This document shows, in pieces, positions 1,695 through 40,049 of a stretch of DNA of 51,613 nucleotides. The notes below the pieces were generated by a model. That model did no database searches, was not told where the DNA came from, and worked only from the letters and a program-made list of their open reading frames with translations. The position numbers and the translations under genes are program-made. Source of the DNA: a virus; the IMG/VR virus record IMGVR_UViG_3300014501_000026, positions 1 to 51,613 of that record. One strand, written 5' to 3'. Position 1 is the stretch's first letter. Each line of letters starts with the position of its first letter.

Positions 1695-1697
1695 CCG

Positions 1698-3785
1698 ATG
1701 AGCGTCGCCAAGGTCGCGGAGGGAACGCCAGTCACCGGCGCAACCGGGGCAGGCGCGGTTTTCGCCCTGCCTGCCGGGACCCAAGCGGGCGACTTTGTCA
1801 TGGTCGGCATCTCCGCTACCGGCGGTCCGTTACAGGCGACGCCAGCCGGGTGGTCGATCCTCTCGTTCCTCCAACAAGGGTCGGTGTTCGAGGCGGTGCT
1901 CGGCAAGACGATCGTTACCGCGGACCTGTCGGCCGGTCCGTTCTCGATTGGCTGGGCCACCTCGACGGGGTACTACATGCCGGTCGGCTACATCAACGCG
2001 CAGGGTCAACCCACCGGGTACGCGTGGGTCGGCGGTGGGCCGGGGCCGTTCCAGGTGGTCCCGATCACCTACCGTTCCTCAAGCGGGGCCTGCGTGATCG
2101 ACGCCATGTCCGCAATGGTCGCCGGGACCGTGGGGCCTGCCGTAACCACGACGGTCGCCAGCGATCAGATCGTGTCGGTCTTGCTTGGCTTCACCGGCTC
2201 GGTGTCGCAGCCGGTTGGATGGAACAACAGCGCCAACCAGCCGTCGTCGGTCGGCATGGGCGTGTTCTTCGCCGACACGACCTACGTCGGACCGGGTTCG
2301 ACCGGCACGACCACCTGGCCCGGGACCATCACCGGCACGGGCGCGGTCGTCACCGTCGCGCTCGAAACCGGCAGCATCGCCCCCCTGGCTCCGACGCCGA
2401 TCGCACCGACTCCGGGGTCAGCAGCCGACGCGACGCAGATCATCACGTATGAGGCGGGCTACAACCCAACCAACGGCGCGGCCATGTCCGCGTATGCGCT
2501 GCGGGTGAAGGTGGGTTCGGGGTCATATCAGTATTACAACCCGGCCGCAGGCGGATCGTTGCAAGCCGGGATCATCTGGAACGCCCTGGTCGTTCCGGCA
2601 GGCGGCACGATCGTCGTCAACCTCCCGGCTAACTTGCTCGCCAACGGCCACGCCGATGTATGGGCGATGAACACGCAGGAGTCGACGGCCGACACTGACG
2701 GTTCGTTCTGCGCCGATCAGGCGTTCACGACTGCGCTCGGTCCGACCGTGACCGTGAACACGCCTTCGGGGACCATCGGCACACCGGAACCGACGATCGG
2801 CTGGACCGCTGCCGCGTCGGCTGGGAACATCTTGTCGGCCTATCGCGTGGTCATCTACACCGCCGCACAACAGGGCGTAGGAGGTTTCCTGCCGGGCGTG
2901 TCGCCGTCCACGTTCGATACCGGACTTTCACCCGGAGCGGTGGCCAGTTTGGTAACCCCGATCCCGCTCGCCAACACGACGACCTTCTACGCCTATGTCC
3001 AGGTCACGCAGAGCAACGGGATGCTGTCGCCGTGGGAATACACGTCCTTCCTCGTCACCTACACCGCGCCGGCAACCCCGACACTCGTTCTGCTCGACTC
3101 CATCCCCTACCCCGGCACCGACCAACCGGTGATGGAGCTCGTCGCCACGGGCCATGATGCGGGCTACGCCGGCGGCAACTGGATCGAGGTGCAGCGATCG
3201 CTCGACGGCGGGAACACCTGGGCCGACCTCCGATACGGCGCGCTGCTCACGCCATCGGCTTCTGAGGTTGCCACGGTGTATGACACCGAAGCCCCGCCCG
3301 GTACGACGATCCTGTACCGCTCCCGCGTCATCACCACCCTGGCCGGCGGCATCCTGGCGTACTCGCTGTGGTCGACGGTCGCGCCGGGCATTCTCAACAC
3401 GTTCCCGTTCTGGGTCCTATCGAACCCGTTGATCCAAGGCATGGGGATGCGGTTCAATCTGTCGGCCAACCCGACCAAGACATTGCGCCAGGTCGATACC
3501 GAGTACGACCCGCTGTCCCGTTCGCACGGGATCAAGATGTCGGACGGGTGGAAGGGCAGCGATTGGAGCCTCCCGATCCGCCTGACCTCGCTGGCCGAGC
3601 AGCTCACGCTCGAGGCGATCATCCTCTCGGCCGGGGCTACTGGGACCCTGCTCCTCCAACACCCCCTCGGAGCGCAGTTCTATTGCACCGCGATCGGGAA
3701 CGTGGCGGTGGCGTTCAACTACTCGACGGGGCAAGCCCCCGTCCACGACACCACTCTCACGTTGAGGGAAGTGGCGACGCCATAA
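1698..3785 (+). CDS. Minor tail protein with beta-sandwich domains
   Basis: A 695-residue protein directly after the tape measure, where distal tail and baseplate proteins are encoded. The first 230 residues look like a Gly/Thr-rich beta domain, the middle carries fibronectin-III-like segments (around residues 250-470, with 'PTPIAPTPGSAAD' and 'PTVTVNTPSGTIGTPEP' linkers), and the end resembles a distal-tail segment. It starts with ATG 3 nt after the previous stop and abuts the next gene. The assignment rests on position and composition; no catalytic motif was seen. Confidence 0.7.
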   Translation: MSVAKVAEGTPVTGATGAGAVFALPAGTQAGDFVMVGISATGGPLQATPAGWSILSFLQQGSVFEAVLGKTIVTADLSAGPFSIGWATSTGYYMPVGYINAQGQPTGYAWVGGGPGPFQVVPITYRSSSGACVIDAMSAMVAGTVGPAVTTTVASDQIVSVLLGFTGSVSQPVGWNNSANQPSSVGMGVFFADTTYVGPGSTGTTTWPGTITGTGAVVTVALETGSIAPLAPTPIAPTPGSAADATQIITYEAGYNPTNGAAMSAYALRVKVGSGSYQYYNPAAGGSLQAGIIWNALVVPAGGTIVVNLPANLLANGHADVWAMNTQESTADTDGSFCADQAFTTALGPTVTVNTPSGTIGTPEPTIGWTAAASAGNILSAYRVVIYTAAQQGVGGFLPGVSPSTFDTGLSPGAVASLVTPIPLANTTTFYAYVQVTQSNGMLSPWEYTSFLVTYTAPATPTLVLLDSIPYPGTDQPVMELVATGHDAGYAGGNWIEVQRSLDGGNTWADLRYGALLTPSASEVATVYDTEAPPGTTILYRSRVITTLAGGILAYSLWSTVAPGILNTFPFWVLSNPLIQGMGMRFNLSANPTKTLRQVDTEYDPLSRSHGIKMSDGWKGSDWSLPIRLTSLAEQLTLEAIILSAGATGTLLLQHPLGAQFYCTAIGNVAVAFNYSTGQAPVHDTTLTLREVATP

Positions 3786-4979
3786 ATGCAACCCGTTTCG
3801 AGCAGATGGTGGCCGGCCATTGCCGCGGGAACATGCCAGCCATATGTCTATTGCAACATCCTTAGTGGGATCGGCGGGGGAATCATTGCCGGGCCGCTGT
3901 TCTGCGACGATGGCTATGGGACCTGGGACCAGACCAACGTCATCCGCCGCACCATCACCCGCGTCAAGTTCACCGACCCAACTGGTGCCCTCGTCCCCAG
4001 CGACCCCTCGCAACCGTTGTTCCCTGACGGCACGCTGATCCAACCGTTCCACGGGTTGCAGTACGCGGACGGCACAACAGAGGTGAAATCCCTCGGGGGG
4101 TTCCTGATCGAGGAAACGGATGCCGACGCGGGGGTCAGTCCCGGCGCGACCGAAATATGGGTGTCGGGTTCGGACCTGGGCGCGTTCATCGGGCGGGCGA
4201 AGTTCACACAGCCCTACGCAACGGACGGGGTCAGCACAACCGACGTGGCGATCAAGGCGGTCCTCGCGGCGGTTCTGCCCAACACCACTTTCGCGTTCAA
4301 CTTCACCAGCACCACTTTTGTCCCGGCCATCGCGACCGCGAACATCGGGGACGATCCGTGGGCGTTCTGCTGCACGCTGGCCGCCAACGCGGGGTATGAG
4401 TTGTTCTTCGACCCGCTGATGAACCTCATCTTCCGGCCGGTTGCGGACCCCTCGACGCTCCCGATTGTCAACGCCGGCCTGGCCTCCAACCCCTATGTGC
4501 AAGGCCCGGGGTGCGTCATCACCGAACTGCGCCACACGCTCACCAACGTGCCCGCACCGAACTGGGTCATCGTCATCGCTCAGGGCAGTGGCATTACGAC
4601 TCCACTGCGCGCGGACTGGCAGGACACCGACCCGAGCAGCCCCACCTACATCGGCGTTCTGAGCAACGGGCCCGGCAGCTACCCGATCCCCGGCACCGGC
4701 AAGTACCCGCTGACGGTGCAATACATCTCGACCGCCATCCCGACCACGCAAGCGGCGGTGCAGGCATACGCGAACGCGATCGGGCTCGCCGGCAAGGGTC
4801 TGCTCGACGGAATTATTATGTGGACGCAGGGGAACGCTGCGCTTGAGCCGGACGACGTGCTGGCCGTGACGCTCGACGTCGCCGGCGTTCGTGGGCCGCG
4901 GAGTTACGTCGTAGACAGTTTCGTATTCCAACTCGGTATCGCTCAGACGACCAAGGCGACGATGAGGCGTGTCGCGTGA
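3786..4979 (+). CDS. Minor tail protein, gp37-like (ReqiPepy6 type)
   Basis: A 397-residue protein whose central region ('GGFLIEE..', 'DPWAFCCTLAANAGYELFFDP', then 'LIFRPV') resembles the ReqiPepy6 gp37-like tail proteins of actinophages, which act as baseplate hub or tail-tip components. It starts one base after the previous stop codon and overlaps the next gene by 4 nt (GTGA), so the genes are translationally coupled. The family is recognised from memory; the exact role in the tail tip is inferred. Confidence 0.65.
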   Translation: MQPVSSRWWPAIAAGTCQPYVYCNILSGIGGGIIAGPLFCDDGYGTWDQTNVIRRTITRVKFTDPTGALVPSDPSQPLFPDGTLIQPFHGLQYADGTTEVKSLGGFLIEETDADAGVSPGATEIWVSGSDLGAFIGRAKFTQPYATDGVSTTDVAIKAVLAAVLPNTTFAFNFTSTTFVPAIATANIGDDPWAFCCTLAANAGYELFFDPLMNLIFRPVADPSTLPIVNAGLASNPYVQGPGCVITELRHTLTNVPAPNWVIVIAQGSGITTPLRADWQDTDPSSPTYIGVLSNGPGSYPIPGTGKYPLTVQYISTAIPTTQAAVQAYANAIGLAGKGLLDGIIMWTQGNAALEPDDVLAVTLDVAGVRGPRSYVVDSFVFQLGIAQTTKATMRRVA

Positions 4980-5836
4980 AGATCGGGATGTTGCGTCTGT
5001 TATGGCTGCTGGTCAGGACGATGATTGGCACGCTTATCGAGCCGACGGGCGTCCCGCCTGGCGCGCAGACAGGCGATGCGTCAGCGGCGTCCGACGCCAT
5101 CACCCAGGCCGTGGTCACCACGATCGGGGCCATCGGTGTCCCCATGTTCAGCTACATGGTCGTGACCGCGGTCACCCTTGGCCCACCTACGACCTGTTCG
5201 ATCGTGCCACCGCAGACGCCAGGCGGCCCAGCGCTGACCCCACTGACCGGCGTGAAAGTGATGGCTGGGTTTGTCCCCTACGTCGGCCAGACCGTGATCG
5301 TGGGATCGGTCGGGACCGATACGTTCGTGTGGGGCTCGACGCAAGGCGGGTCGGGCACCGACGTCGGCCTGATCGGGTGGTTCCAACAAGTGCCGTCTGG
5401 TGGGTGCTGGGTCATCCTCAACGGCGGCACGTTCAGCGCTACGACCTTCCCGATGGCCTATGCCAAGCTCGGGACGAACGTGCTGCCTGACCTTCGCAAC
5501 AAGTTCGTCGTCGGCGCGGGCGGTACCTACGCGGAGGGGACAACCCCCGGAGCGGCAACAGCGACACTCACCCAAGTGAACTTGCCGAACGTCACCCTTT
5601 CGGAAAAGACCCCGTTCCACAAGCACAGCCCACTCAGCAATGGCGCGTTCTACGGGAACGCAGCGGGCGGTACGTCGGGGGTCACGAACGCGGGCGTGAC
5701 AGTTGAGGTGGGAGCAGACCCCACAACCGCCGCAGTCGCCTCCCCCGGCGTCCAGGTGTCCCTCGGCGGATCGGCAACACCGCTCGCGATTATCCCTCCC
5801 AGCTACGCATTGTACCCGTGTCAAAAGCTCGCTTAG
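4976..5836 (+). CDS. Tail fibre protein with phage tail collar domain
   Basis: A 286-residue protein starting at GTG 4976, overlapping the upstream stop. A tail collar domain is visible at about residues 130-215: 'GWFQQVPSGGCWVILNGG', 'FPMAYAKLG', then 'LPDLRNKFVVGAG', followed by a Gly-rich tip with 'HKHSP'. Such proteins form short receptor-contacting fibres. The N-terminal 60 residues probably attach to the baseplate. The fold assignment is fairly safe; receptor specificity cannot be read. Confidence 0.8.
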   Translation: MKIGMLRLLWLLVRTMIGTLIEPTGVPPGAQTGDASAASDAITQAVVTTIGAIGVPMFSYMVVTAVTLGPPTTCSIVPPQTPGGPALTPLTGVKVMAGFVPYVGQTVIVGSVGTDTFVWGSTQGGSGTDVGLIGWFQQVPSGGCWVILNGGTFSATTFPMAYAKLGTNVLPDLRNKFVVGAGGTYAEGTTPGAATATLTQVNLPNVTLSEKTPFHKHSPLSNGAFYGNAAGGTSGVTNAGVTVEVGADPTTAAVASPGVQVSLGGSATPLAIIPPSYALYPCQKLA

Positions 5837-5846
5837 GAGGCTGGCA

Positions 5847-7121
5847 ATGGTGACCCCGATCGCGTTCGACCTCCTCTACAAGGGTTCGCCTCAACCTGGG
5901 CAGTTGACCTACCCCGCGTTGGCGCTGACCTGCTTGCAGGACCAGCCCGGAGCCGCGGCCCTGTTCCCGCAGACGGCGTTGTACGTCGCTCCGATCGTCG
6001 CGGATCCGTGGGCATCAAGCACGGTCCTCGCAGCGGGCACCTACGCGACGTGTGCCAACCCCAACGTGTTCACAGGTGGCGTGAACCGCCACGTCTACGT
6101 CTACAGCGGCGGCACAACCGGGACGACCGAGCCCGCTTGGAACATGACGCCGGGTGGAACGACGGTAGACGGGTCTGGCACTTGGACCGAGTGCTCGTTG
6201 TTGTTCGGCGCCGGCACCATGACCGGCTGTGAGCCGATCGACGTGAACTATGCCCGCGCCCCGCTCGACAACTCCGGCCTGATCTTCTACCAGGACACGG
6301 TCACCCCTAATCCGACAATCTCGTTCCCTGTGTCAGCAACGGCCTACGGCAACGTCGTCGGCCTCTTCGTCTCGGACGCGCCAACGGGCGGGAACATCCA
6401 TGCGTGGGGTCTGTTCCCGGCGGCTTACGTTCCCGCGGTCGGCACCAGTTTGACCATTCCGCTCGGGCCGACAGCAGCACCGGCTCCGCCATCGCCCCAT
6501 GCCATGGCGGTATCCCTCGTCCAGTCGGACACTGTCGACTTCAACCCGTCGTCGTCGGCCTCCGCCCAAACCGTCACGCTCAATGGCGTTATGGCTGGCG
6601 ACACGCTGGTAATGGCGGTGCCCGTGTACGGCACCCCTACAGCCCCGACAGTGAGTTCTGTTACATCGACGGGATCGCCTACATGGACAAAGATCAATAG
6701 CGCGGGTGTGAGCACCCTTGATCTTGAGTGGTGGTACGCGACTGGTGTCCCGGCCGGTACAAATGTTGTCACCGTCACTCCGACCGGCTCGTCGCGGTTC
6801 GGCCTGTGGATCGGCGAGCTGTCTAACGCTGGGACGCCGGTAACGGGCATGACCGACACTGGCGGCAGCACGCAGGTTGGTTACACGGCCATGACTGTGG
6901 GGACACCCGGTTCATGGGTAGCCGTTGCCTCGTTCACCATATCCCCTGAATCTAACTCGGTTGGTCTGGGCTCCTTCAATGCAGGCCCCTACTTCACCGG
7001 CGGCCAGCAGGCTGGGCTTACCTACGGCGCTGCATCGGCCAACACACCGGCAGCCGTCGGCTGGGTGATCCCCTCCGCGGTCAACTGGCTTACCGCCGGC
7101 ATCGTCGTCCCGCCTGCTTAG
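5847..7121 (+). CDS. Modular tail or adhesin-like virion protein
   Basis: A 424-residue protein. ATG 5847 is preceded by TAGGAGG at 5834-5840; an open frame further upstream lacks such a site. Residues 1-215 form a beta-rich unit found in tail-associated proteins ('YVYSGGTTGTTEPAW'). Residues 225-424 form a second domain ('LEWWYATG', 'FGLWIGELS', 'YTAMTVGTPGSWVAVAS', 'GIVVPPA') that recurs at the start of the protein encoded at 42161. This points to a shared surface-binding module. The stop overlaps the stop of the convergent minus-strand gene by 3 nt. Confidence 0.7.
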   Translation: MVTPIAFDLLYKGSPQPGQLTYPALALTCLQDQPGAAALFPQTALYVAPIVADPWASSTVLAAGTYATCANPNVFTGGVNRHVYVYSGGTTGTTEPAWNMTPGGTTVDGSGTWTECSLLFGAGTMTGCEPIDVNYARAPLDNSGLIFYQDTVTPNPTISFPVSATAYGNVVGLFVSDAPTGGNIHAWGLFPAAYVPAVGTSLTIPLGPTAAPAPPSPHAMAVSLVQSDTVDFNPSSSASAQTVTLNGVMAGDTLVMAVPVYGTPTAPTVSSVTSTGSPTWTKINSAGVSTLDLEWWYATGVPAGTNVVTVTPTGSSRFGLWIGELSNAGTPVTGMTDTGGSTQVGYTAMTVGTPGSWVAVASFTISPESNSVGLGSFNAGPYFTGGQQAGLTYGAASANTPAAVGWVIPSAVNWLTAGIVVPPA

Positions 7122-7837
7122 GACACTACGAAGCTGCTTGACGGGTCCACCGGACTGGTCGATGTGCTCGAAGCGATGATCGAGTTGTAGTTGGCGGCCA
7201 GCCCGTAATAGGCGAAGCCCCACAGACTGATCCCCTGCGAGCCTGGCTCGAAGAGGTAGTTGTCGACCGTCACCCAGGCGTTCGAGAAAGAGAACGCGGG
7301 GAACGGATTAGGCGCAGGCCCGAGTGATGGATTCGTCTCGACCAACCACTGTGCTTCTTCTTCAGCGCCAGAACCAACGGGGATGTTGTGAACCGCCCAC
7401 TCGACCCCCGTCGTGTCGTCGATGAACAGCACGCTCGCCCCTGAGCCGGTCGAGGCGTAGAGGATGACGGTGACCAGGTGTCCTGGCGCACAGTCGGACG
7501 GGTTGGGTCCTGGTGCGGGTTGTATCGCATAGCCAACGAGGTCGGATGACCAGAAGCAGTACCCGTTCACTGTTCCCGCTTGCACAAACTGGGCGGCCCC
7601 TACCGGCACCCCTTGCTCGATAGCCACCCAGTCGGCAACCCCGTTCGGAGCGACCGTCATCGTGGCCCCGATGGTGTAGATGGGACCGTTGAAGTTGGCG
7701 TAAGCCACGTAGCCGTCGACCTGAGAGAAAGCCGTGCCGGGTGGGGCAGCGTCGGCCGCTTGGGCGAGCGTCATGCCGACGAGTCCGATGGCGATTGCCA
7801 GGGTTAGGGCTATGCGCCCACGGGTAATGTGCGTCAC
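7118..7837 (-). CDS. Secreted glutamic peptidase (G1/eqolisin)-like protein
   Basis: The only gene on the minus strand. The 239-residue product has a signal peptide (residues 1-30: 'TRGR', a hydrophobic stretch, then 'AQAADA') and a Trp/Tyr-rich beta sandwich resembling peptidase family G1 (A4). The Gln motif is 'VQAGT' (Gln86). The family's EWIVE stretch appears as 'AQWLVE' (163-167), so one acidic residue is replaced and activity is uncertain. It starts at GTG, 9 nt downstream of a promoter that carries the CCCTA palindrome, so its mRNA may be nearly leaderless. It looks like an independently expressed cargo gene. Confidence 0.6.
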   Translation of the reverse strand: MTHITRGRIALTLAIAIGLVGMTLAQAADAAPPGTAFSQVDGYVAYANFNGPIYTIGATMTVAPNGVADWVAIEQGVPVGAAQFVQAGTVNGYCFWSSDLVGYAIQPAPGPNPSDCAPGHLVTVILYASTGSGASVLFIDDTTGVEWAVHNIPVGSGAEEEAQWLVETNPSLGPAPNPFPAFSFSNAWVTVDNYLFEPGSQGISLWGFAYYGLAANYNSIIASSTSTSPVDPSSSFVVS

Positions 7838-12629: not shown

Positions 12630-12991
12630 CCGTCGACGCAACGCTCCAGCCCGTAGACGTTGTCCGCCAACTCACGAAGCTGGGCAGCGAACTGGACGCC
12701 GCGGTTCGGATGCTCAAGGGAGCCGAAATCGAGGCGGTCGAAAAACGGCACGAGGCTGACATGGTTGAAAGCCGGGCCTTCCTGAGCAGCGACGGGGCGA
12801 TGGAGCTACGCAAGCACCAGGCCCGCGTGGCAGCCGACAGGTTCGAGCTACAGGCCCTGACCGCCGAAGCAGTCGTCAAGCATTTACGCGCGCACATACG
12901 GACTATCGAGACGCGCATCGAAATTGGTCGCAGCCTGGGTGTAGCACTTCGGAGCGAACTAAAACTCAACCCCTACGAGGAGGGCGCATGA
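12626..12991 (+). CDS. Helical protein upstream of the exonuclease
   Basis: A 121-residue, highly charged and almost fully helical protein with heptad-like stretches (about residues 30-100). It overlaps the membrane-protein gene and the YqaJ exonuclease gene by 4 nt each, so it is co-translated with the recombination pair and may assist them. No domain is recognised. Confidence 0.65.
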   Translation: MTVDATLQPVDVVRQLTKLGSELDAAVRMLKGAEIEAVEKRHEADMVESRAFLSSDGAMELRKHQARVAADRFELQALTAEAVVKHLRAHIRTIETRIEIGRSLGVALRSELKLNPYEEGA

Positions 12992-13947
12992 ACGCTCCGA
13001 CACTCCCCAAAGCCGACGTCATTGGTGAAGGGCTTAGCCGCGAGGATTGGCTGGGTGCCCGTCGCATCGGTGGGTCCGACATCGCTGCCATCGAGCAGAT
13101 CGACGGCGCGTGGGGATCGCCCCTGACGGTCTGGCTCAACAAGACCGGGCAGGGTCACGACGAACCCGAAACCATGTACCAGCGGGCCGGCAACCGCCTC
13201 GAGCAGCCGATCGCTGAATGGTTCAGCGACGAAACCGGGATCGCGACGGTCCAGCCGAACCCCATCACCATCTACGGCTCGCGGGAGTTCCCGATCGCCA
13301 CGGCCAGCCCGGACCGCCTGACCGCGGACGCCTCCGCGTGGGTGGAAATCAAGAACGTCGGCCATCATCGCACCGAGGAGTGGAGCGACGGCCCACCGGC
13401 TCACTACGCCGCCCAGGCCCAGTGGCAGCTCGCCGTGTCCGGTCTGCCGGTCTGCTACCTGGCCGTGCTCATCGGGGGTCAGGATTTCCGCTGGTATCCG
13501 GTCGAGGAGGACCAGGCGCGTCAGGCCGAGATGTTCGCACACGCCGCCGCGTTCTGGGAGCTGGTTGAATCCGGCACGGCTCCCGAGGTCGACGGGTCCA
13601 ATGCCTCCAAGCAGGCCATCGCTTACCGATACTCCGACGCCGACCCTGACCCGATTGAGGGAGGCGAAGCCCTGGCCATCGCGGTCGACCGGCTGGCACG
13701 AGCCAAGAACGCCGCGAAGATCAACGACGAAACCCTGACCAAGGCCGAGAATGCGGTGAAGCTGATTCTGAGGGAGCACGACACCGGGACCGTTGACGGC
13801 CGGGTCGTCGTCACCTGGAAGGAGCAGTCCCGGCGGGGTCTGGATACCGACGCTGTCCGTTCCCACCTCGGCCCGGACCTTGCAAAGTTTGAGAAGTCCA
13901 GTTCGTTTCGCGTGCTGCGCGTATCGACAACCAAGGAGAAGCGATGA
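12988..13947 (+). CDS. YqaJ/lambda-exonuclease-family recombination nuclease
   Basis: A 319-residue YqaJ-type exonuclease. Landmarks are 'RIGGSDIAAI', 'YQRAGNRLEQPIAEWF', the PD-(D/E)xK core 'TASPDRL' with 'WVEIKNVG', and the trailing 'HYAAQAQWQLAVSGL' helix. Such enzymes resect double-stranded ends and hand single strands to an annealing protein, here encoded next and overlapping by 4 nt. The pair would form a Red-type recombination system used in genome repair or concatemer formation. Confidence 0.85.
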   Translation: MNAPTLPKADVIGEGLSREDWLGARRIGGSDIAAIEQIDGAWGSPLTVWLNKTGQGHDEPETMYQRAGNRLEQPIAEWFSDETGIATVQPNPITIYGSREFPIATASPDRLTADASAWVEIKNVGHHRTEEWSDGPPAHYAAQAQWQLAVSGLPVCYLAVLIGGQDFRWYPVEEDQARQAEMFAHAAAFWELVESGTAPEVDGSNASKQAIAYRYSDADPDPIEGGEALAIAVDRLARAKNAAKINDETLTKAENAVKLILREHDTGTVDGRVVVTWKEQSRRGLDTDAVRSHLGPDLAKFEKSSSFRVLRVSTTKEKR

Positions 13948-14855
13948 CCGACAACACCCTGACCGATCCCCTGACGGAACTGCGCAAGCCGTTCCCGCCA
14001 GACGTGATCGGGAAGCTGCCCAAGGCTGGCGTGACGCTCGACTTCGTGGGCCACGCTCACGTCACCGATCGGTTCCTTTCCGTCGACCCCCACTGGAACT
14101 GGGAGCCGTTCGCACTCGACGACCGGGGCCTCCCAGCGTTCGACAATGCCGGTGGTCTGTGGATCAAGCTCACCATCTGCGGCGTCACCCGCCTCGGTTA
14201 CGGCGACGGACCCGATCCGAAGCAACGCATCGGTGACGCCTTGCGCAACGCGGCGATGCGGTTCGGGGTCGCGCTCGACTTGTGGGCGAAGACTGATCTT
14301 GAATCCCAACTTCCCAATGGCGACGGCACCGGCAGCACCACGCGCCAACCACCCGCGGCAGAAACGGGCGAGATGGCAACCACCCTGGCCGTCGCCGGCC
14401 TGCACGATCGGATCGCCGCGCTTCCTGAAGCCTCCCGCCGTGAGATGGGCGAGGCGTGGAAGGCCGCGGGGCTGTCCCGGCTCGAGGTGGGCCGGTTCCT
14501 GGCATCCGACGCCGCCGACGCGGATCGGCTCATCGCGGCCCAGGAAGCCCGCGAGGTCGATCAGGACCCACTGCCAGAATCCCCCCAGACGGCCCTCAGC
14601 GCCCCTGTGGGGGCTTCAACCCCCGATCCGCGTGCCCAGGACCCGACCGCCGGAACGCCGGGCTTACCGGGCGATATAGATCCGGACCTCATCAATGAGG
14701 TCATGGGCGATGTCGAGGCGATGGACGAGAAGACGATCAACGCCCTCCTCCGCGAGCGTGGGTACTCGGTGGCCGGGGGCATCCGGTCCAGGCGTGTTCG
14801 GCTGTTCCAGGTTTTGGCGACCGAGCGGCAGGTCGAGGCGAAGGTGGCGTTCTGA
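13944..14855 (+). CDS. Single-strand annealing protein, Rad52/ERF-like
   Basis: A 303-residue protein. Residues 15-125 contain 'LPKAGVTLDFVGHAHVTDR', 'DPHWNWEP', 'WIKLTICGVTRLGYGDG' and 'IGDALRNAAMRFGVALDLW', a pattern shared by actinophage Rad52/ERF-like annealing proteins. The C-terminal half is low in complexity, with an Asp/Glu-rich end. It is the partner of the YqaJ exonuclease upstream. Family assignment is from motif memory; structural confirmation would distinguish Rad52-like from ERF. Confidence 0.75.
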   Translation: MTDNTLTDPLTELRKPFPPDVIGKLPKAGVTLDFVGHAHVTDRFLSVDPHWNWEPFALDDRGLPAFDNAGGLWIKLTICGVTRLGYGDGPDPKQRIGDALRNAAMRFGVALDLWAKTDLESQLPNGDGTGSTTRQPPAAETGEMATTLAVAGLHDRIAALPEASRREMGEAWKAAGLSRLEVGRFLASDAADADRLIAAQEAREVDQDPLPESPQTALSAPVGASTPDPRAQDPTAGTPGLPGDIDPDLINEVMGDVEAMDEKTINALLRERGYSVAGGIRSRRVRLFQVLATERQVEAKVAF

Positions 14856-32792: not shown

Positions 32793-35700
32793 ATGGCGCG
32801 ACTGAACCCGGTCAGCGTCGTCCGTCAACGTCGAGCTCGCAACGGCCCGATGTTCCGAGGCGTCCGTGACAACCGTGGCCTGACCGCCTCGGCTGCGACG
32901 ATGGACCTGACCTCGAAGACCGAGGCACGGCGGGTGCGGTACCTGCGCTCGCGTGCTCAGTCCGACGCGTGGTGTGCAGACCCGGAAACCGAAATCCTGA
33001 CGACTCGTGGTTGGCAGCACTACGGCGATCTGTCGGTGGGGGATCTAGTCCTGACCCTGAACCACGACACAGGGCTAAGCGAGTGGCAATCGGTCGAAGC
33101 AGTCAATGTATGGGAACCGGCTGAACGCGCCATGCTCAGCATGGAAGGGCGTCTTCATTCGTCGCTCACGACCCTTGATCATCGTTGGCCGGTTTTGGAA
33201 CGTCGCGTTCCATGGATTACTTCGGATGAGACTCGGCGTCAGGCGCGCCTTCGTGGCTTACCACAGCCATCGAGTGATCCTCGGCCCCCTACGACGATCA
33301 AGCGGAGGTGGCGAACATCCGGTGATCTGACTAGCAACCACCCAATCATTACTGCTGCTCCGTGCATCGACCTCCCGACCGAGCCGAAATACACTGACGC
33401 ATTTGTCGAACTGGTGGCGTGGTGGTGGACCGAGGGTCATTCTCGACCTGCTGGATACACCACGATCACCCAAAGCGTGAGAGTGAATCCTGGGTATGTC
33501 GATCGCATCCGGGCGGCGCTTACGATGACGTTCGGCCCAGCCGTTTTCACTACCCGTGGCGTGACGGAGCCAGCATGGCGTGAGTTTCGCGACGGCGGGT
33601 GTGCGGTGTTTGGCCTCAACGCACCGGCAGGCCGCCAACTGATGGCACATGGTGACGACCGCAAGGTAGTGACCTCGGAGTTCGTGCTGTCCCTTACCCG
33701 ATCACAGTTGGAGCTGTTTATCCAGACGTCGGTTGACGGGGACGGCCATCGTGACGACGGGCGCAACGTAGTCGTGACTCAGAGCGTGCCCGAACGGCTG
33801 GACCCGCTGGCCTTGGCCGCGATTCTCACGGGTCGGACTCCGCACCTCTACCAGAAGAGAGAGAACGCCTGGGCGCTCCATCTGCGCGACAAGGCGACCA
33901 TAAATCCTCTCGGGGCAGCGGCGAAGGATTGGGCACGAGCAGCGCGTGTCGAACGGGTGATGTTCGACGGCCCTGTGTGGTGCCCCACCACAGCCAACCG
34001 GACATGGCTTGCACGGCGGCGCGGAACGGTCTACTTCACCGGCAACAGCTACCGGAACACGGTCGGTGAAATCGGGTTCGCCCAACGCTTCCTCGCCAAC
34101 TGCGCCGGCCGCATGAAGATTTACCCAGCCATCTACCCGGTCGGAACTTACGACCAGGACCCGGTACCGCTGAACGACGAGGAAGCCGGGCCGATTCCGC
34201 CGCAGATTCTCGACGCCGCACAGAACTCGATGGCGTCATTCGCCTCCGGTCGCGTGGCGATGAGCGAGCACATGGAGCGCATCTCGGCCCAGATCGCGAT
34301 CGCAGGCGAGGGCTACATCGTCGGGACAACCGACGCGGTGGGCGATGAGTCATGGAACGTCCGCTCGATCGACGAAATCATGGTCAAGAACGACCGCTGG
34401 TATCTGCGCGAAGTCCCGACCACCTCCAACAACGACTTCGGCTGGGAGCCGCTCGACGACCCGACCAACACCTACATCGCCCGTTTCTGGACCCCGCATC
34501 CCCAGTTCAAGGTCATGGCCGATTCGCCCATGTTCGGCATCCTCGAAAGCTGCGAGGAGTTGCAAATCCTCCGCAAGACGCTCCGCGCCACCGGCAGGTC
34601 GCGGCTCATGTCGGGCATCTTGAAATGGCCGAAGGGCCTCAACGTCATGGGGATGCCCAACGACAACCGTGACCCCGTGGCGACGCCGGAAATCAAGGCG
34701 ATCACCGACGCCATGATGGCCCCGATCGTCGATGAGGGTGTCGCCTCGGCCGTCGTCCCGCTGCTGGTGTCGGGCGAGGAAGGTCCGCTGTCGGGCTTGG
34801 AGTTCATGACCTTCCAGCGTCCCTTCGACGCCACGGTGTTGCAACGCATCGAGGCGCTCATCGGCTACATGGCAAACGGGCTTGACCTCCCAGCGCAGGT
34901 GCTCACGGGTATCGCAGATTTGAACCATTGGACTGCCTATATGGTCGACGACAACACCTGGCGCTACCACGTCGAGCACCACGTCCGGCAATGTGTCGAT
35001 GCGATGGCGGTCGGGTTCTTGCGCGCTGCGATCATGGGCGCCGACGAGGTGCAGGGCCTCGACCCGATCATCGTCCGGCAGTTCGCCGCCCGCATCTGTG
35101 TCTGGTACGACCCGGTCGAACTGGTCACCCACCCCGACAAGACCCAGAACGCCCTCAACCTCTACGACCGCAAGGAGTTGTCCGGCGAATCACTGCGCGC
35201 CGCGGTCGGGTTCACCGAGGACGACAAGCCGACCCCCACCGAGTTCGTGGCCCGGCTCATCTCGGCCCAGCGAACCTGGCCCGCCAACGTCTCGCTGGCC
35301 GTGGTGGCCCGCGAGGACCCGAGCCTGACGATCCCGCCGATCACCGCCGCCGGCATGGTGCCGGGGATCAAAGCTGGCCTGGTGCAGGAAGCCGTCGCCC
35401 CAGCGCCCCCTGGAACGCCACCAGAACTGCCCCCAGGCGCTCCTACGCCCCCCGAACCGACTTCGCCCCCCGTCGCCCCACCGGCGCCCGAGGCAGCCCC
35501 TCAGCCGGTCCGTGGGCCCGCCCAGTCGACTCCACCGGGCATGGTGGCAGACGACGTGACGACGATGGCCGTCCACCCGCTCGGCCAAGCCCACCCGCGC
35601 CTCACCCCCAAGGCCCGCCAACTCTCGGCCAAGCTGACCGGGATCGACCGGGACCTGCGGGCGCGGTTACAGGTGCTCGCCTCGACCACGATCACCCGCG

Positions 35701-36647
35701 CGCTCGAACGCGCGGGGGCACAGCTCCGCACCAAGGTCCGCGGGTCGCGTGCCCTCACCGCCTCGATCCGCCCGGTCGCCAACACCCGCGTCGCGTTCAC
35801 CCTCGGCCCCGAAGTCTCGGCGCAATACGGGCTCGACCCGCGGGCCACCTCTGCCGACCTGACCGAGTTGAAGCCGACGTTCGAGGCATGGGTCATGCAA
35901 GCCCAGGAAGGCGCGCTGGCAACGGCGCACCAACTCGCGGGCCCAGGTGGATCGACGGCCAAGCTCACCGCTGCGCGCGCGGCAATGGCGACTGCGCGCG
36001 ATAACGCGTGGACCTACTTCGCCGCTCAGTTGCAGACGCTCTACGAGCAAGCCTTGTTCAAGGCTCAGCCCTCGATCGACAAGGGCACGCTGGCGCCGCT
36101 CGACCCCGAGACGGTGGTGCCGACTGGGGTTGTGCGCCGGACGCTCGCGGTTGCGGGAGGGTTGTCACCGACCAGCAAAGCGGTCACGGCCATCGTCGCT
36201 GCCGCGTTCGTGCCCCCGGTCGCTCCCATCCCGACAGCCGCCGATGACGCCGACGACGCGGGTGAAGCGGAAGCTGTGACCGACGCTGGCGTCGATACGA
36301 CCACCGAAGGGCTCGGCGCGGGAATCATCCAGGGCATCGTGGCCCAGATCGGCGGAGGCCCGATCGTGTCGGACCTGCTCAGTGCAGCCGGGTCCGAACT
36401 CGCTGGGTACGTGTGGATGTGGGGCGGCGGCGGTCCGACAGGGGCATACCCCCCACATGAAGACCTCGACGGATTCGAGTTTCAGAACTGGGACGATCCT
36501 GGGCTCGCGGTGACAGGGGATTGGGACCCGAGCGGCACGGGCTTCGAGACGGTCGGATCGCACGATGGCTGCTCGTGCGATTTCGTCGTCCTCGCGACCG
36601 AAGGCACCGACACGGCAGACACCGGCGACGAGGAGAACACCCCATGA
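32793..36647 (+). CDS. Portal protein fused to a MuF-like domain, with an intein
   Basis: A 1284-residue precursor. Residues 1-60 and 419-875 form the portal ('VGEIGFAQRFLANC', 'ISAQIAIAGEGYIVG', 'GLDLPAQVLTGIADLNHW'), the ring at the head vertex. Residues 61-418 are an intein, leaving 926 residues after splicing. A Pro-rich linker (about 870-935) leads to a helical domain and a MuF-type ending ('PPHEDLDGFEF', 'SHDGCSCDFVV'), normally a separate minor head protein. Thus portal and MuF are joined. Confidence 0.85.
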   Translation: MARLNPVSVVRQRRARNGPMFRGVRDNRGLTASAATMDLTSKTEARRVRYLRSRAQSDAWCADPETEILTTRGWQHYGDLSVGDLVLTLNHDTGLSEWQSVEAVNVWEPAERAMLSMEGRLHSSLTTLDHRWPVLERRVPWITSDETRRQARLRGLPQPSSDPRPPTTIKRRWRTSGDLTSNHPIITAAPCIDLPTEPKYTDAFVELVAWWWTEGHSRPAGYTTITQSVRVNPGYVDRIRAALTMTFGPAVFTTRGVTEPAWREFRDGGCAVFGLNAPAGRQLMAHGDDRKVVTSEFVLSLTRSQLELFIQTSVDGDGHRDDGRNVVVTQSVPERLDPLALAAILTGRTPHLYQKRENAWALHLRDKATINPLGAAAKDWARAARVERVMFDGPVWCPTTANRTWLARRRGTVYFTGNSYRNTVGEIGFAQRFLANCAGRMKIYPAIYPVGTYDQDPVPLNDEEAGPIPPQILDAAQNSMASFASGRVAMSEHMERISAQIAIAGEGYIVGTTDAVGDESWNVRSIDEIMVKNDRWYLREVPTTSNNDFGWEPLDDPTNTYIARFWTPHPQFKVMADSPMFGILESCEELQILRKTLRATGRSRLMSGILKWPKGLNVMGMPNDNRDPVATPEIKAITDAMMAPIVDEGVASAVVPLLVSGEEGPLSGLEFMTFQRPFDATVLQRIEALIGYMANGLDLPAQVLTGIADLNHWTAYMVDDNTWRYHVEHHVRQCVDAMAVGFLRAAIMGADEVQGLDPIIVRQFAARICVWYDPVELVTHPDKTQNALNLYDRKELSGESLRAAVGFTEDDKPTPTEFVARLISAQRTWPANVSLAVVAREDPSLTIPPITAAGMVPGIKAGLVQEAVAPAPPGTPPELPPGAPTPPEPTSPPVAPPAPEAAPQPVRGPAQSTPPGMVADDVTTMAVHPLGQAHPRLTPKARQLSAKLTGIDRDLRARLQVLASTTITRALERAGAQLRTKVRGSRALTASIRPVANTRVAFTLGPEVSAQYGLDPRATSADLTELKPTFEAWVMQAQEGALATAHQLAGPGGSTAKLTAARAAMATARDNAWTYFAAQLQTLYEQALFKAQPSIDKGTLAPLDPETVVPTGVVRRTLAVAGGLSPTSKAVTAIVAAAFVPPVAPIPTAADDADDAGEAEAVTDAGVDTTTEGLGAGIIQGIVAQIGGGPIVSDLLSAAGSELAGYVWMWGGGGPTGAYPPHEDLDGFEFQNWDDPGLAVTGDWDPSGTGFETVGSHDGCSCDFVVLATEGTDTADTGDEENTP
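32973..34046 (+). mobile_element. Intein 1 with LAGLIDADG-type endonuclease (358 aa)
   Basis: Begins at Cys61 with 'PETEILTTRGW' (block A), has block B 'TTLDHRWPV', endonuclease helices 'ELVAWWWTEGH' and 'FIQTSVDGDGH', and ends 'TVYFTGN' before Ser419. The penultimate residue is Gly, not the usual His. The +1 residue is Ser. Both splicing ends and both DOD motifs are present, so splicing and homing could be active. Confidence 0.85.
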
Positions 36648-36685
36648 CCCCTACCCGCGTGGCAGACTACCGAGGAGCGGAATGA
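36644..36685 (+). CDS. 13-codon relay micro-ORF
   Basis: ATG 36644 overlaps the portal stop (ATGA) and its own TGA overlaps ATG 36682 of the next gene (ATGA). It contains the next gene's GAGGAGCGG ribosome site. This is the cleanest double-overlap example in the window. Confidence 0.35.
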   Translation: MTPTRVADYRGAE

Positions 36686-36864
36686 CCACCTACGAGCTGA
36701 TCCAACGCCTGGCAAAGTTCCCGCCCGAGACGCGGATCGTCCACGGCGTGGACTGGTCCGACGATGTCGTGCTTGACGACTACACCGGGGTCACGGACGC
36801 CCCGCCGACGTTGGCACTCACCACGTCCGTGTCATCCGCCCCTCGCCAACGGGTTGAAGTCTGA
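36682..36864 (+). CDS. 60-residue hypothetical protein between portal and protease
   Basis: ATG 36682 with GAGGAG upstream; the stop shares a base with the protease ATG. 'MTTYELIQRLAKFPPETRI' resembles small phage proteins of the 'ELIxxLxxxPPxxxV' type, a mini alpha/beta fold found in many phages with no known function. Confidence 0.6.
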   Translation: MTTYELIQRLAKFPPETRIVHGVDWSDDVVLDDYTGVTDAPPTLALTTSVSSAPRQRVEV

Positions 36865-39800
36865 TGACGGACACCCTGTCCCGTTCCGCGATCGTTAACC
36901 AGTGGTATTCGGCGCTCGCCGCGGCCGGTCCTCCGCCCCCGGTCGCGGCAGCGCCACCTGCTCCTGCGAAGGCATCCCCGACCGCCGACGAACCGTTCGA
37001 GCCGCAGCCCTACCACGCCGACCCCGACGAAACGGTCCAGTGTCCGAAGTGCCAGAAAATGAACGACGTCGATGCGAGCTATTGCGATCAATGCGGTACA
37101 AAGCTGGCCGGCGATCCGGATGTGAAGATCATCGCCCCCGCCGCGCCTCCTGCCCCCGCTACGTCGACCATTAGAGGGGTCGCCTACGCGAGCAATGGGT
37201 ACGCCATCCCGCCACCGCCCGAACCTGCCGCTGCACCTGCTCCTCCGCCAGCCACGAAGGCACCGACCACCGACGTCGACAACTCCGTGCCCTGTGCGAA
37301 CACCCAGAGCGATGGGACGCCGTGCAACCACCTCGCGTCCGCGCACGACGACACCGCGACCGGAGCGAACACCGGCCCGTGCTCGATGCAGAACTGCGAC
37401 TGCGCGGGCATGATGATCCCCGACCAGGACGAGGACCTCGAGGCGCCCGAGCCGGCAGCAGTTCCTGCGGGAGCAGCGTCGGCCGAAACGAGCGAGTGGG
37501 AAGTCCGCTCGACCGAGGCGCGTGGTCGTGGCACAGTCCCGCCCAACCTCGCACGGCTGCTCGACCGAGCCACCGAGGGCAATCGCTCCGCTCCACTGAC
37601 GGCTGCCGCTCCGCCGGTTGCTCCTGCTCCCGAAGCCGCGCCGTCTGCACCGGCACTCCCTGGCCCGGCCGATCTGCCCCCGCTCGACGCGCTCGGCCCG
37701 GCGTTCAGCATCCCTGTCGCGGTGACCGAGGGCACGCTGACCGACGACGGCCGCACGATCGCCCCCAACGCGCTGACGTGGCGCGACCCGCCGATTCCGC
37801 TCATGTACCTCAAGCACACCCCCGAGATGGGTGGGCACGGTGGAGCGAAGCTGGTCGGGCGGATCAACACGATTACCCGCGGTGGCACGGTCATCTCGAT
37901 GGAGGGCAACTTCCTCACCACGCCGGACGGGGCAGAGGCCGCAGCCGACCTCGGTGGTATGGGCCGCCTCGGCATCTCGATCGACGTGGGCAACGTGAGC
38001 GAGGACATCGAGCTACCGCCGATAGAGGGCGACGAGGAGTTCGACGGGCCGGTTGCTTCAGACCCGGTTGCCTCGCTGACCGCTGGCGTCATCATGGCCG
38101 CCTGTTATTCAGAAGACACTGAAGTCCTGACCGACAGTGGATGGAAGCGATTCATTGATCTGGTCAAAGGGGTGGACCAGGTGGCGAGCCGGAATCAGAA
38201 GACGGGGGCCTTTGAATGGGCCCACCCGACTGCCTATTTTGCCTTGGATTACACCGGGCCGATGGTGCACTTCTACGGCGGCCGCCGACGTAATCTCGAT
38301 CTGTTGGTCACCCCAAACCACCGCATGCTCGTTCGAAGTCAAAAGACCGGCAAAGAGACGTTCGTTCGCGCCGATCATCTGGCATCCAGCACTAGCCTCT
38401 ATTGGGGCATCCCTACTACGTCGGTCCCTAACGACGTTGACGTGGATACCTTCCGCATCGAAGGGGCGCGCCGCGGTGTTCCCCACGTCCTGACAATCAA
38501 AGGGGACACGTTCGCTGCCTTTATGGGTGCGTGGTTGGCCGAGGGGTCTATCGTCGCTGGGCGCGGAAGGGTGTACATAAGCCAGATCCCCAGTGGGCGT
38601 GGCCGTGAGGCGTACCGAACGATGTTGACAGACCTGTTGGGGCATGAGCCAAGTTCTGACGCCACTGGGTTGTACTTCCAGAACCGCGTGCTGGCCGACT
38701 ACCTGGCGCGGTTCGGTCATGCAGCGGACAAGTTCATCCCCGACGAACTGAAGGATTTCTCTGCGCGTCAACTGCGCATCTTCTGGGATCACTACATGCT
38801 GGGCGATGGCTGCGCCAGCCGGCCAGAGAGCGTGACCGCGAGCGAACGTCTCGCTAACGACCTACAAGAGATTGCACAACGCATGGGCATGTGGGCCACA
38901 ATCATTCCCCGTGACCCAAAGGGAGATTCTGTCCTAAGCGATGGTCGAATCATTCTCGAGGCGAACAAGCGCCGCCAGTTTGTCGTTGGGTTCCGCAATA
39001 CAGGAGACGCTGGCCGTCATTCGTCCGAGGCGATCTGGGTTCGCCAGAATGAATCGGTGGACTATGACGGGACGGTGTATTGCGTGTCCGTTCCGAACGA
39101 GTCGCTTTATGTGCGCCGCAATGGCGTTCCTGCCTGGTGTGGCAACACCATGTGTACCCAGGCCGCGTTCCCTGGCGCGTACATCGTGCTCGGTGACGGC
39201 TCTGCACCGAACGCCGCCATTCCGCTCGAGCAGCCCAGCGCGGGCATGGGAATCGAAGGCATCCACGTCCTGTCCGGCCAGCCGTGTTGCGACGACTGCG
39301 AGGAAACCGACGCCCTGGTTGCCGCTGGTGCGATCGCTCCCATCCGACCTCCCACCGCGTGGTTCGTCGTGGACGAGCCGACCGAGCTGACACCGTTGCG
39401 GGTGACCGAAGCTGGCCAGGTCTACGGGCACATCCCGTGGAACCAGTGCCACACCGGGTTCACTGATCGCTGCGTCGTCGCTCCGCGCGGTGGGGCTTTC
39501 GGCTACGACCGGTTCTGTTCCGGCTATGTGCTGACCGACGAAGGCGACGAAATCCGCACAGGTCCGATCACCAGCGGCACGACCCACGGCGATGATGCGC
39601 GCGACTGGAACGACTGGTCGATCGAGCGCACCAAGCGCCACTACGCCGACACGGGCCACGCGGTTGCCGACGTAGTCGTGCGTGACGGGAAGCTCGGCAT
39701 CTGGATGTGTGGGGCCATGCGCCCGACCGCAACCGACGAGGACTTCCGCACGATGCGCGCCTCGGTTGTCTCCCCCGATTGGCGTTGGGAGGGCAATCAC

Positions 39801-40049
39801 CAGTCGATGGTCGCCGCGTTGGCGGTCAACTACGGCGGGTTCCCGACGCCGCGCATCCCGCGCATGAAGGCCGTGGTCGCTTCCGGGCACACCAAAGTCC
39901 TGGTGGCGTCGGGTGTCACCGAGCAGCTCGTTCTCCGTGCCGAGGAGGAGCAGGCCGAACCGACCGCCGATCAGCTCGTGTGGCGGGTCATGGCCCCGAT
40001 TGTGACGTCGACCCTGCGCGCACGCATGAACCGAGTGAGGAGTCTGTAG
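36864..40049 (+). CDS. Prohead protease with zinc ribbon and an intein
   Basis: A 1061-residue precursor. The N-terminus has a zinc ribbon ('CPKCQKMNDVDASYCDQCG'), Ala/Pro-rich linkers and a second Cys cluster. The HK97-type serine protease lies at about residues 270-413 and 762-780: 'FSIPVAVTEG', 'YLKHTPEMGGHGGAKLVGRI' (His), 'GISIDVG' (Ser), and 'IMAA' joined after splicing to 'TMCTQAAFPGAYIVL'. Residues 414-761 are an intein. The mature protein would be 713 residues, long because about 290 more residues follow the protease. Confidence 0.75.
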   Translation: MTDTLSRSAIVNQWYSALAAAGPPPPVAAAPPAPAKASPTADEPFEPQPYHADPDETVQCPKCQKMNDVDASYCDQCGTKLAGDPDVKIIAPAAPPAPATSTIRGVAYASNGYAIPPPPEPAAAPAPPPATKAPTTDVDNSVPCANTQSDGTPCNHLASAHDDTATGANTGPCSMQNCDCAGMMIPDQDEDLEAPEPAAVPAGAASAETSEWEVRSTEARGRGTVPPNLARLLDRATEGNRSAPLTAAAPPVAPAPEAAPSAPALPGPADLPPLDALGPAFSIPVAVTEGTLTDDGRTIAPNALTWRDPPIPLMYLKHTPEMGGHGGAKLVGRINTITRGGTVISMEGNFLTTPDGAEAAADLGGMGRLGISIDVGNVSEDIELPPIEGDEEFDGPVASDPVASLTAGVIMAACYSEDTEVLTDSGWKRFIDLVKGVDQVASRNQKTGAFEWAHPTAYFALDYTGPMVHFYGGRRRNLDLLVTPNHRMLVRSQKTGKETFVRADHLASSTSLYWGIPTTSVPNDVDVDTFRIEGARRGVPHVLTIKGDTFAAFMGAWLAEGSIVAGRGRVYISQIPSGRGREAYRTMLTDLLGHEPSSDATGLYFQNRVLADYLARFGHAADKFIPDELKDFSARQLRIFWDHYMLGDGCASRPESVTASERLANDLQEIAQRMGMWATIIPRDPKGDSVLSDGRIILEANKRRQFVVGFRNTGDAGRHSSEAIWVRQNESVDYDGTVYCVSVPNESLYVRRNGVPAWCGNTMCTQAAFPGAYIVLGDGSAPNAAIPLEQPSAGMGIEGIHVLSGQPCCDDCEETDALVAAGAIAPIRPPTAWFVVDEPTELTPLRVTEAGQVYGHIPWNQCHTGFTDRCVVAPRGGAFGYDRFCSGYVLTDEGDEIRTGPITSGTTHGDDARDWNDWSIERTKRHYADTGHAVADVVVRDGKLGIWMCGAMRPTATDEDFRTMRASVVSPDWRWEGNHQSMVAALAVNYGGFPTPRIPRMKAVVASGHTKVLVASGVTEQLVLRAEEEQAEPTADQLVWRVMAPIVTSTLRARMNRVRSL
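38103..39146 (+). mobile_element. Intein 2 with LAGLIDADG-type endonuclease (348 aa)
   Basis: Begins at Cys414 with 'SEDTEVLTDSGW', block B 'VTPNHRMLV', endonuclease helices 'FMGAWLAEGS' and 'HYMLGDGCAS', and ends 'GVPAWCGN' before Thr762. Penultimate Gly again replaces His. Insertion is in the conserved 'AATM' segment just before the last strand of the protease fold, a typical intein target. It differs strongly from intein 1. Confidence 0.85.

Follow-up and report, generated by a model that had tools for sequence, protein, structure and literature searches.

Genes and inteins at the locus

The window is the whole stretch of DNA analysed, 51,613 nucleotides of the IMG/VR virus record IMGVR_UViG_3300014501_000026 (positions 1 to 51,613; one strand, 5' to 3'). 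Two adjacent head genes in it, those of the portal and of the prohead (capsid maturation) protease, each contain an intein; both inserts have Hint blocks A, B, F and G, a terminal Asn and Ser or Thr at position +1, and are not present in homologues. The borders and junction residues given in the initial annotation are exact in the open reading frames (ORFs) 32793–36647 and 36864–40049, and its choice of portal and prohead protease as hosts agrees with the profile matches given below. No third intein was recovered from the window by hmmsearch with the profiles of both intein families. The presence of two mobile inteins that splice is given a probability of about 0.9, a figure that covers mobility and splicing and leaves aside the relay mechanism discussed below. 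Residue counts refer to 71 non-redundant members of each of two families, W (the family of the portal intein; Cys1 plus the Trp-Cys-Thr (WCT) triplet) and Q (that of the protease intein; class 1 signature, Cys at F:4).

Portal gene and its intein: the features are as follows (aa, amino acids).

32793–36647, + strand: portal precursor ORF, 1284 aa; N-extein 1–60, C-extein 419–1284
32973–34046, + strand: portal intein, 358 aa; Cys61–Asn418, ending Gly417-Asn418 (intein numbering Cys1...Gly357-Asn358)
33171–33188, + strand: block B, T-L-D-H-R-W; Thr67 (B:7), His70 (B:10), Trp72 (B:12, W of WCT)
33432–33434, + strand: Glu154, acid of LAGLIDADG motif 1; E 67 / D 3 of 71 family members
33741–33743, + strand: Asp257, acid of LAGLIDADG motif 2; D 70/71
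33981–33983, + strand: Cys337, block F:4 (C of WCT; V-W-C); C 70/71
34038–34046, + strand: end of block G, Thr356-Gly357-Asn358; Thr = G:5 (T of WCT), 71/71; Gly = G:6, replacing His, 68/71; Asn = G:7, 70/71
34047–34049, + strand: +1 Ser, first C-extein residue

The host was identified by the PHROG 776 portal profile (E 2.8e-75; residues 420–1006, over the extein); tblastn gave matches to portals in 848 phage records, the best being Actinomycetia phage DSL-LC01 (33%). The intein was recovered by the W-family profile (hmmsearch, E 1.2e-130); LAGLIDADG motifs: LVAWWWTEG and IQTSVDGDG; AlphaFold model: predicted local distance difference test score (pLDDT) 92.9, top match in the fold search 7qsu (E 2.7e-16); predicted spliced product: 926 aa. 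By eye, the C-terminus of the ORF (window 35900–36647, ...HDGCSCDF...) resembles a MuF-type minor head domain, and the gene may be a portal-MuF fusion.

Protease gene and its intein: the features are as follows.

36864–40049, + strand: prohead/capsid maturation protease precursor ORF, 1061 aa; N-extein 1–413, C-extein 762–1061
38103–39146, + strand: protease intein, 348 aa; Cys414–Asn761, ending Gly760-Asn761 (intein numbering Cys1...Gly347-Asn348)
38310–38327, + strand: block B, T-P-N-H-R-M; B:12 is Met, not Trp; family M 44, V 14, L 6 of 71
38541–38543, + strand: Glu147, acid of LAGLIDADG motif 1; E 63 / D 5 of 71
38805–38807, + strand: Asp235, acid of LAGLIDADG motif 2; D 69/71
39081–39083, + strand: Cys327, block F:4; C 66 / D 5 of 71
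39138–39146, + strand: end of block G, Cys346-Gly347-Asn348; G:5 C 39, S 23; G:6 Gly 71/71
39147–39149, + strand: +1 Thr, first C-extein residue

The host matched PHROG 18402 (head maturation protease, E 7.5e-31) and is 31–37% identical to capsid maturation proteases of actinophages. For portal and protease alike, most similar proteins come from actinophages, the nearest being 33–37% identical. His325 and Ser372, invariant in comparison with two homologues, are candidate catalytic residues. The intein was recovered by the Q-family profile (hmmsearch, E 6.7e-121); LAGLIDADG motifs: FMGAWLAEG and WDHYMLGDG; AlphaFold model: pLDDT 92.2, top match in the fold search again 7qsu (E 6.6e-17); predicted spliced product: 713 aa. 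The N-terminal part of the ORF (window 36900–37400) has a zinc-ribbon-like CxxC pair (residues 60–81; weak Pfam matches) and a second cysteine-rich stretch, features unusual in a prohead protease.

Both intein models matched the intein-homing-endonuclease structures TliVMA, PhoVMA, PI-SceI and PI-PfuI, and I-DmoI was matched as well; a PDB sequence search gave no significant intein match for the inserts, whereas the fold search did. Pfam and NCBIfam matches to the window proteins are weak or absent. The LAGLIDADG helices reported at first inspection were found again as motifs, as fold matches and as acids conserved among relatives (about 95–99% of members in both families), a conservation as expected of endonucleases under selection. 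Both inteins are predicted from sequence to splice and to have endonuclease activity, and the orders of nucleophiles proposed below are predictions of the same kind.

Intein families

Collection of the families: W members were collected from viral contigs via endonuclease-domain patterns, so that splicing motifs were not selected for, although a match counted as confirmed only if it resembled the intein of the window; 102 loci were confirmed and 80 kept, the cap for each scan. For Q, 405 loci were confirmed and again 80 kept. Class 3 inteins of the Catera gp206 type were represented by the Cas4 insert of phage ET08, which is homologous to the Catera gp206 intein, and by the TerL inteins of Eureka and Hughesyang.

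Relation of the two inteins: the portal and protease inteins are homologous along their entire length (22% identical by BLASTP, E 2e-6; profile-profile E 1.4e-38), and their description as dissimilar in the initial annotation was too strong. Its conclusion that they had been acquired separately holds: in the tree of splicing domains (107 columns, 57 rows, unrooted) W, Q and canonical class 3 inteins form separate groups (supports 97/97, 82/70 and 100/100, respectively), each window intein lies within its own family, both are foreign in composition, and the nearest relatives carry neither insert. A recent duplication of one intein is ruled out by the place of each in its own family.

Hosts and sites within the families: among the host genes that could be recognised, portals are the most frequent in both the W and the Q sample, and several different insertion sites occur within related portals of the sampled contigs. 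W-family inteins were found at other portal sites, about 10 residues downstream in one locus (L019) and at the site NHW| in six more. One portal-like gene (L028; contig IMGVR_UViG_3300037258_000549) holds two W inteins, at 5671–6099 and 6337–7314: one is a natural mini-intein of 143 aa, which is without endonuclease and keeps Cys1, HRW, VWC and TGN, and the other is full-length. Caudovirales GX15bay (4581–6563 and 1632–4454) has a W intein in a gene annotated 'portal protein' and an intein of the class 3 type in the neighbouring PhoH gene; by eye this 'portal protein' resembles a prohead protease, and its intein interrupts GSLFF|SMETVPEEVSCP, perhaps right at the catalytic Ser.

Insertion sites and origin

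The inteins are inserted at conserved positions, QSDAW|SY in the portal and VIMAA|TM in the protease; the empty-site DNA reads ...GACGCGTGG|AGCTAC... (portal) and ...ATGGCCGCC|ACCATG... (protease). A search for intein-free alleles in related phages had been proposed with the first description, and such alleles are what was found: the tblastn alignments to related viral contigs that cross the sites, 96 for the portal and 79 for the protease, run through without an insert. Of the two patterns used in the portal scan, only one overlaps the site and biases toward empty alleles. The closest relative is a single contig with both genes (L189/L272; portal 44%, protease 37% identity), and its portal reads QSDAW|SYRDQIGELR, uninterrupted. 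No intein of the three searched types was found in 160 extein-relative loci, examined with as much as 9 kb of flanking DNA at either end. Scanned as single sequences against viral contigs, neither the portal extein nor the protease intein gave close relatives; alignments were needed.

The residue at +1 is Thr in all 79 protease relatives. In the portals it is Ser in 6 alignments only, all of them from nearest relatives, and mostly Glu in the others, so insertion of the portal intein would have depended on a usable residue being in place at +1 beforehand. The inteins have a GC content at third codon positions (GC3) of 0.654 and 0.675; the values are higher for their exteins (0.783–0.839) and for the major capsid gene (0.846), and the difference suggests that both inteins derive from a different genomic background.

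These data are best explained by a separate uptake, by homing or horizontal transfer, of two full-length inteins (Hint domain plus LAGLIDADG homing endonuclease), the donors being two sister families of phage inteins and the targets conserved positions of portal and protease. Each intein would spread through its own endonuclease, and both would excise constitutively after translation to give a portal and a protease of the predicted lengths. Genes of a RecE-like exonuclease and a single-strand annealing protein, a phage recombination pair, lie at 12988–14855 of the window; this pair could help mend homing breaks.

Class signatures and splicing mechanism

Penultimate Gly: the replacement of the penultimate His by Gly, pointed out for both inteins at the outset, is indeed present in both, and it is not peculiar to them: Gly at G:6 is an ordinary trait of the two families (68/71 W, 71/71 Q). 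A convergent or regulatory meaning of the shared Gly is ruled out by the same counts. Mycobacteriophage class 1 inteins commonly are without penultimate His; the RDF intein of Bethlehem gp51, with penultimate Gly, splices completely, and the change of this Gly to His slows splicing (PMC5050341). Splicing within minutes has been described for an intein without both histidines that assist Asn cyclisation (PMC7891396).

Protease intein: the signature is that of class 1 (Cys1, TPNH, Met at B:12, Cys at G:5) and the WCT triplet is absent. The intein would belong to class 1 and would follow its usual route, from the Cys1 thioester to Thr+1 and on to Asn cyclisation, the latter without the penultimate His.

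Portal intein: all three class 3 residues, Trp at B:12, Cys at F:4 and Thr at G:5, stand alongside the Cys1 and TxxH of class 1. The same holds for the W family: Cys1 71/71, Thr/Ser at B:7 70/71 and His at B:10 71/71, along with Trp B:12 70/71, Cys F:4 70/71 and Thr G:5 71/71, at a mean modal frequency over columns of 0.47; 62 of the 71 members read C-T-W-C-T-G at A1, B:7, B:12, F:4, G:5 and G:6. Two members depart from the triplet: in L093 the stored sequence has a frame shift at the C-terminal end, and L091 is aligned with Asn at B:12. The Q family varies at the triplet positions (M/V/L at B:12, C/D at F:4, C/S/N at G:5), and the near-invariance of Cys1, TxxH and triplet in W makes both reaction centres appear to be under selection there.

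Class 3 inteins as a rule are without Cys1 and TxxH (PMC5050341, PMC6195587, PMC7891396), and a survey of 1701 of them admitted an intein only with 'no cysteine' as its first residue (PMC7891396); by this exclusion the W lineage would be put in class 1 unnoticed. The portal intein has the WCT triplet and, with Cys1 in 71/71 members of its family, has the position-1 nucleophile that the definition of PMC7891396 excludes; with Cys1 and TxxH conserved it was not filed simply as class 3. No published description of a lineage with Cys1 and WCT was found in the literature searched, the coverage of which was incomplete. Tori and Perler (2011) reportedly dealt with class 3 inteins that have a nucleophile at the N-terminus. 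The W family is apparently an undescribed lineage of hybrid signature.

Initiation by Cys1 is the most likely start of splicing in the portal intein, since Cys1 and the Thr/Ser of B:7 are conserved as strongly as the triplet. From there the acyl group would either go to Cys F:4, which then serves as a relay on the way to Ser+1, or Cys F:4 would assist the transfer. That the portal lineage uses three successive acyl carriers (Cys1, Cys F:4 and then Ser, Thr or Cys at +1), as a hybrid of classes 1 and 3, is put forward tentatively, as less likely than not. Several points qualify this reading of the portal intein. The tree, unrooted and of few columns, shows W, Q and class 3 as three long-separated groups and fits either a single or a double origin of WCT; class 1 inteins, too, can have Cys at F:4 and usually carry a large hydrophobic residue at B:12 (PMC7891396), so that the WCT triplet of W could be a class 1-compatible convergence; and the nucleophile order of the portal intein is not readable from its sequence.

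The best of the alternatives, with a chance that falls somewhat short of even, is that both inteins are plain class 1 and that the WCT residues of W are structural or accessory. Cys1 and TxxH are retained, Cys at F:4 is common in class 1 (PMC4031507), and the sister family Q has C or D at F:4 and M, V or L at B:12. It is the near-invariance of Trp, Cys and Thr in W, far above the mean modal frequency, that this explanation accommodates poorly, while B:12 and G:5 are variable in Q.

A pure class 3 portal intein, with a direct attack of Cys F:4 on the N-terminal junction and no need of Cys1, is unlikely, and less to be expected than the relay. The triplet is complete, position 1 is not required by class 3 (PMC5222942), and the ET08 Cas4 intein combines Ser1 with the triplet, so a position-1 nucleophile is compatible with class 3. 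Yet Cys1 is invariant in W and B:7 nearly so, whereas class 3 inteins generally lose the B:7 Thr (PMC6195587); moreover, W groups apart from canonical class 3, and in profile comparison the class 1-like Q family (E 1e-38) is a closer neighbour of W than class 3 is (E 1e-10).

The suggestion of the initial annotation that splicing times head assembly would make the inteins regulatory switches of portal and protease maturation. Both proteins are needed in head assembly and conditional splicing exists elsewhere (Msm DnaBi1; PMC6195587), but nothing specific to this locus supports the idea, which is very improbable: the two inteins have no regulatory feature in common, the sites are empty in all sampled relatives, and the two families, the foreign GC3 and the conserved endonuclease acids point to selfish elements. 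Homing into essential genes explains the pair, as the elements are different, each with an endonuclease, a foreign composition and empty sites in relatives. Decay of one or both inteins to a non-splicing state (pseudogene, assembly error or dead phage) is scarcely credible either: both catalytic His for Asn cyclisation are missing and a decayed class 3 intein is on record (PMC3196547), but the frames are open, the blocks complete and the acids conserved, and the G:6 Gly is near-universal in both families, a phage intein with such a Gly being able to splice.

Relation to known inteins and significance

Relatives of the portal intein: the intein of the Gordonia phage Woes portal gp8 (annotated 'contains intein') belongs to the W family and is 42% identical to that of the window; with Woes, the inteins of Belphegor, GordTnk2 TerL, Pinkcreek gp135 and GX15bay are 34–42% identical to it over the whole length. 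These Woes-type inteins share Cys1, HRW, VWC, TGN and a LAGLIDADG endonuclease with the portal intein; they differ in insertion site and often in host gene, and none occupies the portal site of the window. Class 3 inteins of the Catera gp206 type are like the portal intein in the WCT triplet, the LAGLIDADG endonuclease and their occurrence in phage genes; unlike it, they usually are without Cys1, have a residue other than Thr at B:7 and a penultimate His (PTHN), and form a tree group of their own (100/100).

Relatives of the protease intein: about 30% identity was found to the thymidylate synthase intein of Corynebacterium phage P1201 and to the nucleotidyltransferase intein of HyRo. These two and the Bethlehem gp51 RDF intein, the last compared by its published description, have Cys1, TxxH and penultimate Gly as here, in other host genes.

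Phages with several inteins are known among mycobacteriophages of cluster C1 and Zeta crAss-like phages, the latter with up to 3 (PMC5050341, PMC7886860); these have several inteins per genome in core genes, the present one a portal and a protease intein, one of each family. About 10 other fetched loci carry at least 2 inteins in neighbouring genes (for example L066 and GX15bay, W plus class 3; L129, Q plus class 3), so the neighbourhood is not special to this phage. The double insertion is an arrangement of a known kind, and the portal intein is an interesting variant; the pair adds to the picture of portal genes as hot spots of phage inteins.

The origin of class 3 is disputed: a derivation from class 1 (PMC3196547) stands against a separate path, argued from steps that would need simultaneity (PMC7664689). 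The W family, by stably keeping Cys1, TxxH and WCT, indicates that both sets of active-site residues can coexist, and makes the disputed origin testable. If the relay is true, this lineage would be a living instance of the intermediate needed for class 3 to have arisen stepwise from class 1, and would have escaped notice through the exclusion of Cys1 from the survey.

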